38,906 nt of DNA, taken from Bacteroidota bacterium. Lineage in GTDB: Bacteria; Bacteroidota; Bacteroidia; B-17B0; Aurantibacillaceae. Below the pieces are notes generated by a model. That model worked only from the letters and a program-made list of their open reading frames with translations, made no database searches and was not told where the DNA came from. Each line of letters opens with the position of its first letter. Within the stretch, counting starts at the first letter, position 1. Shown piece by piece: positions 258 through 3,661 of this stretch. The DNA lies in contig OMJH01000194.1 in the NCBI GenBank assembly GCA_900299295.1, forward strand, positions 1 through 38,906, given 5' to 3'. The position numbers and the translations under genes are program-made.

Positions 258-1556
258 TTAAACAAACAAGCTGATCAGCCAGTAACAAAGCGCGGCAATA
301 AATCCTGAAACAGGAATTGTCAATATCCAGGCCCACAATAAACTTACGGTAACACCCCAGCGCACCGCCGAAACGCGCTTCGATAAGCCTACACCAATGA
401 TTGAGCCCGTAATCGTGTGCGTTGTGCTAACGGGTATTCCAAAAAATTGCGTAATGTAAAGCGTAATCGCTCCGGCAGACTCTGCGGCAACTCCCTCAAG
501 CGGTGTAACCTTAGTAATTTTAGTTCCCATGGTTTTAATAATTCGCCAACCACCGGAAAGCGTTCCTAATCCAATCGCAATGAAACACGCATACGTTACC
601 CACTCCGGAATATGAGAAATTTCTCCTTTGGGTTTTAATTCTTCGAGTTTGGTAAATTTTGCTTGTGGTGCTCCCGATAAAATTTTTCCATCAATACTAA
701 TTTCTTTTTCAAAATCTGTAACGGCTACTGCCATTGCTTTTTTTGTTGTTGATTTTCCTTTTTTTCCAAAATCTTCGGCCGAGCCCAGCACATAAGGAAC
801 GCCGTTAATTGTATCTATTTGAAGCGATTTTTCGCTGATAGCATAATAGGTTGTATCAAACTTATACACTTTGTCCACCTGGGCCCAGGTCGGAACTTTT
901 TTATCTTCTTTATGCAGGCTTGCTGAAAAGACTAAAAGTGCGGCAGCAATAATTCCCATCACTTTTTGCGCATCATTACTTCCATGACCTAATGAAAATG
1001 CCGCGGAAGAAACCAGTTGCAGACGCTTAAACCAACGCTCTGCCCGAAACGGATTTGATTTTCTGCAAATATTAATAATGATAACCGTCAGGAAATAGGC
1101 GAGAATCATCCCGATTAAGGGAGCAAGAAAAATAAACGCCAGTGTGGTATAAATTTTTGCAATATCAGCAAGCGCACCAAAACCCGCTTTAGCTATTGCC
1201 GCCCCGGCGAAACCGCCCAGTAACGTATGGGATGAACTTGAAGGAATTCCTGCCCACCAGGTTAGAAGGTTCCAAAAAATTGCAGCTATAAGTCCTGCCA
1301 GAATAACCCACATATCAATGGATTCGGTTTTTACAATTTTAGAAACCGCGTCAGCAACTTTAAATTCAAACCCTAGTAGTTTGTGCTGGCATAAAAAAAT
1401 CACAACGGCATTAAAAAAGGCTGCCCACGCCACTGCCTGAAACGGGCTTAAAACTTTGGTTGACACAACTGTTGCAATTGAATTTGCCGCGTCGTGAAAT
1501 CCGTTAATATAGTCGAAAAGTAATGCAAGAACGATTACGGTAATTAACAGTGCCAT
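258..1556 (-). CDS. PiT-family inorganic phosphate transporter
   Basis: This is a 432-aa polytopic membrane protein of the PiT (PHO4) family, which imports phosphate with H+ or Na+ across the inner membrane. The two internally related family signatures are visible: GFHDAANSIATVVSTK near residues 19-34 and the second copy SLGHGSNDAQKVMG around residues 187-200. Several hydrophobic helices flank each. A soluble, Lys-rich segment of about 100 residues (roughly 213-315) separates the two halves, as in many bacterial PiT proteins. It lies 9 bp downstream of the DUF47 gene and is almost certainly co-transcribed with it, the common arrangement for low-affinity Pit systems. Upstream Pho-box-like repeats suggest phosphate control. 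Ion coupling cannot be read from the sequence. Confidence 0.93.
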   Translation of the reverse strand: MALLITVIVLALLFDYINGFHDAANSIATVVSTKVLSPFQAVAWAAFFNAVVIFLCQHKLLGFEFKVADAVSKIVKTESIDMWVILAGLIAAIFWNLLTWWAGIPSSSSHTLLGGFAGAAIAKAGFGALADIAKIYTTLAFIFLAPLIGMILAYFLTVIIINICRKSNPFRAERWFKRLQLVSSAAFSLGHGSNDAQKVMGIIAAALLVFSASLHKEDKKVPTWAQVDKVYKFDTTYYAISEKSLQIDTINGVPYVLGSAEDFGKKGKSTTKKAMAVAVTDFEKEISIDGKILSGAPQAKFTKLEELKPKGEISHIPEWVTYACFIAIGLGTLSGGWRIIKTMGTKITKVTPLEGVAAESAGAITLYITQFFGIPVSTTHTITGSIIGVGLSKRVSAVRWGVTVSLLWAWILTIPVSGFIAALCYWLISLFV

Positions 1557-1565
1557 CGTTTGGTA

Positions 1566-2213
1566 TTAGGAGTATTTAATAATAATTGTTTCAAGTGTGT
1601 TTGCCGCGTCCTCTGCCTTGTCGGTTGCCGTTTCCAAAATGGAAAGAATTTCTTTTTGTTTAATCAACTCCACGGCATCTTTTTCGGTTTCAAATAAACT
1701 GGCCAGCGCGATATTAAAAATTCTGTCTGCCTCGTTTTCAAGGCTATTTAATTTAATGCACGATTCTCTGACTAGTCGGATGTTTTTTTGGTTTTTTAAT
1801 CCGGAAACTGCTTTTTCAATTTCCATTGCTCCGGCATGAATGTTTTCTGTTAATTGCACAATTGCATTTGTAAAAACCTTGATGTTATAAAGATCAATGC
1901 GCGTGCTGGCTCCTAAAATGAAATCTGCGACATCATCAATAGCCGTTGCTAATGCATGAATGTCTTCCCGGTCAAAAGGTGTAATAAAATTTGACCCTAA
2001 TTCAACAAAAAGTTGATGGGTGATTTCATCTCCCTTATGCTCAAGCTCCTCAATTTGACGTAAAAATATGGAGCGCTCGGTATGATTTTCTGTTTTTACC
2101 AGTTTCACCAATATCTCGCTCATCTGCACTAGATTTTGAGCGTCTTTTTCAAACAGGGGAAAAAACTTTTTGTCCTTTGGAACAAAAAACTGGAAGATGG
2201 AGTTTGCTGACAT
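1566..2213 (-). CDS. DUF47 / PhoU-like Pit accessory protein
   Basis: This 215-aa, largely helical, soluble protein matches the DUF47 (PhoU-related) family that accompanies PiT transporters and is thought to modulate their activity. Family features seen are an N-terminal FFPLFEKDAQNLVQM segment, the central EELEHKGDEITHQLF stretch with its acidic/His metal-binding character, the FDREDIHALATAIDDVADFI motif, and a C-terminal ENEADRIFNIAL / ATDKAEDAANTLE pair. It is the first gene of a two-gene unit with the transporter (9-bp gap). The promoter region at 2231-2265 contains tandem 11-bp repeats that look like a Pho box. The family assignment is firm; the regulatory mechanism is not established from sequence. 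Confidence 0.9.
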   Translation of the reverse strand: MSANSIFQFFVPKDKKFFPLFEKDAQNLVQMSEILVKLVKTENHTERSIFLRQIEELEHKGDEITHQLFVELGSNFITPFDREDIHALATAIDDVADFILGASTRIDLYNIKVFTNAIVQLTENIHAGAMEIEKAVSGLKNQKNIRLVRESCIKLNSLENEADRIFNIALASLFETEKDAVELIKQKEILSILETATDKAEDAANTLETIIIKYS

Positions 2214-2230: not shown

Positions 2231-2265
2231 TAAATATAATTTTCGAATATTAAGCGAATGTTAAG
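2231..2265 (-). promoter_or_regulatory. candidate Pho box and promoter of DUF47-pit
   Basis: Read on the minus strand, 2265-2244 is two adjacent 11-bp copies, CTTAACATTCG and CTTAATATTCG, differing at one base. Five bases further is TATATTTA (2238-2231), one base off the Bacteroidota -7 element TAnnTTTG, about 18 bp before the DUF47 start codon. Each half resembles the PyTTAAPyPyW half-site with 11-bp period described for cyanobacterial Pho boxes. The same pattern recurs upstream of the porin at 3640-3661. The repeats are visible directly; binding by a PhoB-type regulator is inferred. Confidence 0.5.
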
Positions 2266-2280
2266 AATTTAATTGAAGGG

Positions 2281-3576
2281 TTAAAATCGATATTGAACTC
2301 GCATTGTAAAGACATTATCTCTAACATCTTTCGTATAACCAACGACCCTTGTTGCTTCATTTTTTACAATATTATAATAGAACATAAATTTTACATGTTC
2401 ATCGTAATAATAATTATACCCCAGCCCGGTAGCGTTGTACTTTATTTCAGCTTTTGTAAACCCTAATGAAGACGCGATTTGATTTCCTTTTAATTCGGTG
2501 TTGGGATCGTACCACTCATACTTACATACCAATTCATGTTTGGAGTTTCCAATCCGTTGTATAAAGTAGGCGCAACCCGCATTAAAATTTCTTGTATAAA
2601 CGTCAGGTGTAGCGAGAAGGGTTGCCCAGCTTTTATTTTCATCTTTAGTTGACGACTGTTGTCCCTGTGCATACTCTGCTCTAATTGTTGTAACACCTAT
2701 ACCGCTTTTAATAGAAAACTGAACGTCGCCCGCATAATATCTGCGCGGGGCGATGCGGCCTTTCATGTTTGGATTTGAAACGGTGTCTTGCATTGTCCAT
2801 ACAAAATTTCCGGAAGTGTCTTTTTTTAACTCATTATACCAATGATTATTTTGAAACAAAACGCCGCCATAATATAATGATGAGCCGATTCCAAATTTAA
2901 TTTTATTGTTTTTTGATGCTTTATCAAAATGAATTCGGGAAATAAAATCTTTAATATAATCCGGATCAACTACCCCGGCGCCGTTCAGGCTGGTTGTACC
3001 CGGCACAGCAATTCCTGTTCCGTTAAAAAGCCCTGCATCAATTTTAAGCCCGTACAGCCTACTAGCGGCTACAGGCTGATAGGTAAGCATCATACCAAGA
3101 TCGCGTTCGTTTGGGGTTATAATCTGGAGGTAGCGTGAGCGCTCCGGGGTTTCTCGGTCTGCTGAAGACTGTTGAATCTCGAAACTGTACGGGCGGTTCA
3201 TTGTGCCAGCGGTCAATATAAAAGATTTAGTTAATGGGTCTGTTACCTTCAAATAAGCCTCAACCAAATTAACCCCCCGCTCTGTGGCGTTTAGCTGCAT
3301 AACATACTGGGAGTTTTTTGCAGAATAGGTAAATTTTACACGACCGCGTCGAATGATAAAACGTTTGTCTGAATTGGGAAGAAAATCGCCCCCGTCAAAA
3401 TTTTTTGCTCCGGAGGAATCAGTAAACTGAAGCTGCGGCTGAATCCATCCTGTAATTTTAAGGTTTTTCCAACGCTCGCTTTCTTTTAATAACTCCTTAA
3501 CTAAAGAGTCCGTTTGAGATTTCAGATTTATAAAGAAAAACGGTAAAAAAAATGGTAAAAATTTAATTGATTTCAT
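2281..3576 (-). CDS. OprO/OprP-type phosphate-selective porin
   Basis: This 431-aa protein has a Sec signal peptide (MKSIKFLPFFLPFFFINLKSQ) and a body rich in alternating aromatic/polar beta-strand patterns, ending in an outer-membrane barrel signature with terminal aromatic residues (FTMRVQYRF). Sequence style (KITGWIQPQLQFTDSSG, then FIIRRGRVKFTYSAKN, AYLKVTDP, and ATGLGYNYYYDEHVKFMFYYNIVKNEA near the end) fits the phosphate-selective porin O/P family. It would let phosphate or polyphosphate through the outer membrane. It lies directly upstream of the DUF47-pit pair on the same strand and has its own Pho-box-like element, so a phosphate-uptake role is consistent. Substrate selectivity is an inference from family and neighbours. 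Confidence 0.85.
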   Translation of the reverse strand: MKSIKFLPFFLPFFFINLKSQTDSLVKELLKESERWKNLKITGWIQPQLQFTDSSGAKNFDGGDFLPNSDKRFIIRRGRVKFTYSAKNSQYVMQLNATERGVNLVEAYLKVTDPLTKSFILTAGTMNRPYSFEIQQSSADRETPERSRYLQIITPNERDLGMMLTYQPVAASRLYGLKIDAGLFNGTGIAVPGTTSLNGAGVVDPDYIKDFISRIHFDKASKNNKIKFGIGSSLYYGGVLFQNNHWYNELKKDTSGNFVWTMQDTVSNPNMKGRIAPRRYYAGDVQFSIKSGIGVTTIRAEYAQGQQSSTKDENKSWATLLATPDVYTRNFNAGCAYFIQRIGNSKHELVCKYEWYDPNTELKGNQIASSLGFTKAEIKYNATGLGYNYYYDEHVKFMFYYNIVKNEATRVVGYTKDVRDNVFTMRVQYRF

Positions 3577-3620
3577 TTGTTTTAATTTTCGATTACAAAA
3601 TTGTAGTCTGAAGATTAATT

Positions 3621-3661
3621 CAATGTTATCTGAAATGCCCCAATATTAAGAAATGGTTAAG
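3621..3661 (-). promoter_or_regulatory. candidate Pho box and promoter of the porin gene
   Basis: On the minus strand, 3661-3640 reads CTTAACCATTT then CTTAATATTGG: two half-sites beginning CTTAA with an 11-bp period. It matches the DUF47 upstream site at 17 of 22 positions. Eleven bases on is TAACATTG (3628-3621), one mismatch to TAnnTTTG, about 45 bp before the porin start. A separate TACAA-aa-TTGTA dyad lies at 3594-3605 in the presumed leader. Regulatory function is inferred from position and repetition. Confidence 0.45.

Follow-up and report, generated by a model that had tools for sequence, protein, structure and literature searches.

Probable Pho boxes phased to the −7 promoter element upstream of phosphate-uptake genes in Bacteroidota

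Two tandem 11-bp repeats lie upstream of the phosphate-uptake genes in a 38,906-nucleotide stretch of DNA from a Bacteroidota bacterium of the Aurantibacillaceae (contig OMJH01000194.1; "the window" below is this whole stretch). They are very likely PhoB-type sites (Pho boxes) that replace the −33 promoter element and activate the DUF47-pit unit and a phosphate porin gene, as far as binding and the direction of control can be read from sequence. In a wider frame, the box very probably serves this large group of bacteria as its switch for phosphate starvation. What is new here is the layout, an 11-bp array phased to the promoter through the −7 element TAnnTTTG, which stands 7+11k bases past the box core. 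The window holds the following features:

258..1556, minus strand: Pit-type phosphate transporter (PHO4; PF01384, E=1.8e-86)
1566..2213, minus strand: DUF47/PhoU_div protein, 215 aa (PF01865, E=3.6e-19), opening the DUF47-pit unit; ATG at 2213
2231..2238, minus strand: −7-like element TATATTTA, 7 bases past the core of box 1 (phase 7+11k, k=0)
2244..2265, minus strand: putative Pho box 1, tandem 11-bp units CTTAACATTCG + CTTAATATTCG, upstream of DUF47-pit; 24.4 bits, the top position of the window
2281..3576, minus strand: outer-membrane protein of the phosphate-selective porin O/P family, 431 aa (PF07396, E=1.2e-8); ATG at 3576
3596..3603, minus strand: −7-like element CAATTTTG of the porin promoter, at offset 7 from box 2b
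3609..3630, minus strand: putative Pho box 2b, degenerate, GATAACATTGA + ATTAATCTTCA, in phase with CAATTTTG; 1.4 bits, window rank 3
3640..3661, minus strand: putative Pho box 2a, CTTAACCATTT + CTTAATATTGG, upstream of the porin gene; 16.9 bits, window rank 2

A sequence-only reading of this DNA had placed repeats at 2265-2244 and 3661-3640 on the minus strand, ahead of DUF47-pit and the phosphate porin. Sequences and coordinates proved exact, and Pfam names the genes as that reading did (PHO4, PhoU_div and Porin_O_P). The DUF47 protein is further related to 3l39 (E=8e-49), and the porin match is strongest toward the C-terminus (E=1e-8). The 11-bp period, which had been likened to the geometry of PhoB boxes, also holds: there are at least two direct repeats with this period and a conserved core of 7-8 bp, exact in the window and kept over 58 sites. 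Box 2b, lying between box 2a and the porin start, had been overlooked.

These 58 sites, all from other genomes and with the window sites excluded, were used to build a scoring matrix. Among ~78,000 window positions it ranked box 1 first and box 2a second, after which the scores drop to 1.4 bits. The strict pattern CTTAAY-N5-CTTAAY has five matches in the 2.82 Mb genome, two of which are the window sites; the matches on contigs C170 and C172 both fall inside genes and were set aside. A looser pair, YTTAAY-N5-YTTAAY, was not enriched in the same genome (38 matches versus 56 for the control) and was dropped as a test, so that it is the precise repeat, not richness in TTAA, that carries the signal.

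We scanned 396 genomes of the class for STTAACATTnnSTTAACATT with at most one mismatch, using the reversed pattern as control, and obtained 254 matches in 175 genomes compared to 59 in 44 genomes. This threshold was adopted because the excess was modest at up to two mismatches (176 versus 112). Of 72 sites that were read, 71 are intergenic, and the genes downstream are mostly DUF47/pit, phosphate porins, pst genes, phoB, ppk and Na/Pi transporters. A Pfam search of 57 nonredundant downstream proteins returned DUF47 (13), Porin_O_P (7), PHO4 (5), Na/Pi cotransporter (2), ppk (1) and Response_reg (1); the DUF47 share is partly by construction, because the search consensus was drawn in part from DUF47 upstream regions, which does not apply to the porin, pst and phoB shares. 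For the same reason, sets chosen independently of the box weigh more. Of the 15 strong pstC loci, ten have a box of at least 7 bits in the gene cluster, some of the pst operons in this set being without one. Among the 26 top-scoring PhoB-like genes, 15 have a box of at least 5 bits within 260 bases upstream on either strand, and a box precedes 6 of 10 readable DUF47 loci, the window's own locus excluded. At the DUF47 loci of relatives in distant families, the same repeat pair stands 50-100 bases upstream of the start. Across genomes, then, the box precedes genes for phosphate scavenging more often than chance would allow, and the conservation upstream of orthologous phosphate genes that the sequence-only reading had set as its own test was found in many families, at DUF47/pit, porins, pstS/pstC, phoB, ppk and Na/Pi transporters. 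Its further suggestion, that the repeats could define the Pho box of this lineage, sets too small a range for phosphate genes in general and too large a one for DUF47-pit, since the box is absent upstream of 56 Bacteroidales DUF47 loci.

Strong boxes were also seen near short secreted proteins, some of MORN-repeat type, at four loci (L181, L193, L205 and L214); these proteins are a possible uncharacterised member of the regulon. Separately, a single genome (G062) has long 11-bp tandem arrays of TGTAATACGAT at C1:44530-44645 and C4:112114-112197, which could be a decayed or an unrelated repeat.

The distance between box and promoter follows the same period. Allowing one mismatch, TAnnTTTG is found at 7, 18, 29 and 40 bases past the core, that is, at 7+11k; when each family contributes at most one match per offset, 53 matches remain, of which 19, spread over 10 of 15 families, have phase 7 mod 11 (p=9e-8). 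The register of box 1 with the −7-like TATATTTA, previously noted at this one promoter, therefore holds and now has statistical backing. The slots between core and −7 element are occupied by decayed units that keep the register, and together with the 7+11k spacing this describes the box as an 11-bp array running up to the promoter core. In-phase sites make up 7 of 14 for DUF47 and 4 of 7 for PIT, in the same −7 phase as at the porin and other sites. Within the window, TATATTTA and CAATTTTG each differ by one base from TAnnTTTG, and the fixed spacing at the upstream edge of the promoter core is present with k=0 at DUF47-pit and, at the porin, via box 2b only: the degenerate box alone is in the −7 register there, the strong box 2a being two bases out of it. 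A congener (G001) has kept the DUF47-pit box, which like box 1 fits k=0, with an exact TACCTTTG at offset 7 and an unchanged distance of 52 bases to the ATG, at an overall identity of 34 of 55 bases.

In the mechanism we propose, each 11-bp unit (consensus [C/G]TTAACATTnn) would be bound by one PhoB DNA-binding domain, head to tail. Because the core of the last unit of the array ends 7 bases before TAnnTTTG, the −7 element of the Bacteroidota promoter, PhoB would stand in for the −33 element and recruit RNA polymerase when phosphate is scarce. The targets switched on in this genome would be DUF47-pit, the phosphate porin and a PhoB-like receiver gene. The last of these lies directly downstream of a third in-phase box (C57:6402, L049:1501) with TAATTTTG at offset 29; it encodes a receiver only, and its reading frame appears to shift within a run of A. 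As neither pstC nor a Na/Pi cotransporter was found in the assembly, which is 93% complete, phosphate may be taken up chiefly through the porin and Pit. An Rfam search of three loci of this genome gave no match. An intergenic 26.7-bit box was also observed on the minus strand at C176:10718-10737 (L048), between a carA-like gene and the following 824-aa ORF; it faces the 3' end of that carA-like gene, and no target gene was seen.

The genome holds PhoB-family response regulators. Two of them, at C60:8437-9093 and C149:164-808, fall in a clade with all box-linked regulators (support 100/99), and both have the E. coli PhoB-like recognition helix DRT-x-DVH. Both score below the curated cut-off of TIGR02154, as do the regulators of all 50 genomes searched. 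No box was found upstream of the full-length phoB-like gene, and the upstream region of the second regulator is at a contig edge. PhoB-type recognition helices are common to other OmpR-family regulators, so the binder is not named by sequence alone, and we infer rather than observe which of the two regulators acts.

The unit is closest to the Pho box of cyanobacterial SphR/PhoB, CTTAACCT, which consists of three 8-bp repeats with 3-bp linkers (PMC1906773). The 8-bp unit here, CTTAACAT, is near-identical, the period is 11 bp, and both boxes stand upstream of pst, phosphatase and other phosphate genes. The resemblance to the cyanobacterial box, put forward in the sequence-only reading, is borne out to this extent, but the strict form PyTTAAPyPyW, with pyrimidines at positions 6 and 7, fails: position 6 is C or T, whereas position 7 is A in 56 of the 58 class-wide first units and in 3 of the 4 window units, of which only CTTAACCA fits. 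It also differs in that two strong units are enough, that the array is phased to TAnnTTTG and that the regulator belongs to the Bacteroidota PhoB clade. The E. coli PhoB box comprises direct repeats of CTGTCAT in 11-bp units ~10 bp upstream of the −10 element (PMC4415409, PMC1906773). It shares with the box described here the 11-bp tandem geometry, a similar recognition helix and the position just upstream of the promoter core, where it replaces the upstream promoter element; the sequence of the unit differs, however, the core here is the Bacteroidota −7 TAnnTTTG and not a sigma-70 −10, and the length of the array varies in 11-bp steps.

Within the phylum, Bacteroides fragilis has a PhoRB regulon in which the pst genes and a phosphate/sulphate permease depend on PhoB: the pstC promoter is a target of PhoB binding in vitro, and in the phoB mutant the pst genes and the permease BF3715 are strongly down, the latter 52-fold, while the accessible part of that report defines no box (PMC3547664). 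In related Bacteroides, pst promoters carry a TGTAACA variant, and the Bacteroidales DUF47 genes lack the CTTAACATT box. In Phocaeicola vulgatus and B. xylanisolvens, 11-bp repeats of TGTAACA type precede the pst genes with a −7-like element in the same phase, which suggests a drifted unit in the same layout; this rests on few promoters, as the three-unit TGTAACA pattern is not widespread (26 of 247 class genomes).

We considered whether PhoB might bind the box yet repress DUF47-pit. There is precedent in Sinorhizobium meliloti, where orfA-pit, an operon with a Pho box that comprises pit and its preceding gene, is reported to be shut off in phosphate starvation (PMC3131613), and the box here is close to the promoter core. 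In S. meliloti, however, the box is found immediately before the translation start, a position that other Pho promoters do not share (PMC3131613), whereas the box here is upstream of the −7 element, and the DUF47 and pit boxes share their −7 phase with the porin and other sites. The fall of permease expression in the B. fragilis phoB mutant also indicates activation (PMC3547664). We therefore regard repression as unlikely. Slightly less probable again is that the box answers to a different OmpR-family regulator (the second PhoB-like paralogue, for instance) and reflects some stress unrelated to phosphate. The presence of two close paralogues in this genome would fit such a reading, as would some sites whose downstream genes encode TonB-receptor-like proteins or MORN-repeat proteins or have no known function; against it, phosphate genes are the commonest downstream genes and the best PhoB-like regulators bear the box themselves. 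Also against it, a genome of the same family (L266) has boxes in the region that separates the divergent genes for phoB and a TonB receptor, an arrangement resembling the starvation-induced Fjoh_0544/0545 neighbourhood (PMC8115612). That AT-rich tandem repeats happen to lie near two phosphate genes is scarcely credible. Looser TTAA-type pairs are indeed common in this genome, at a level not above the control, but conservation, intergenic placement, the ranks under an independent matrix and the phase to the −7 element all contradict chance. Activation by PhoB through the box is thus the reading we prefer.

In open-access papers, we found no Bacteroidota Pho box consensus. The present layout of operator and promoter is concrete and searchable, and would apply to phosphate control across a major bacterial class; Pho regulons become predictable in Bacteroidota genomes and metagenomes. 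It also predicts a starvation-controlled Pit transporter in a lineage where no Pst was found, and makes a coupling of phages to the phosphate state of their host testable.

In IMG/VR, the box pattern matched at least 120 stretches versus 36 for the control. The 120 stretches among the matches listed contain 272 sites of at least 12 bits, 245 of them intergenic, and the control contigs contain no site reaching 12 bits. Among the matches listed, 79 contigs of uncultured phages form one cluster of relatives (within loci L336-L455, e.g. L354, L342 and L347), in which a fragment has as many as six tandem 11-bp boxes with in-phase TAnnTTTG, like the host Pho promoters. The exact element is in phase at 115 of 164 phage sites among the matches listed, and at 27 of 53 sites that the search pattern had not selected, counts that are not independent because the contigs are related to each other. 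The terminase nearest to that of the box phages is from Nonlabens phage P12024L (53%); this phage and Riemerella RAP44, the cultured relatives, have no strong box (best 7.1 bits), and the phage fragments showed no clear homologue of PhoB. An uncultured lineage of Bacteroidota phages might have adopted the class-wide 11-bp PhoB array, read in helical steps to the −7 element, for several of its own promoters, which would tie phage expression to host phosphate starvation via host PhoB; we hold the arguments for and against this to be evenly balanced. A further phage-like contig (L113, G095:C12), which encodes an amidase, head-tail connectors, a helicase and a metallophosphoesterase, has four strong boxes at 993, 2177, 4181 and 7635; past each core, at a distance of 18-19 bases, comes a −7-like element (CATCTTTG or similar).
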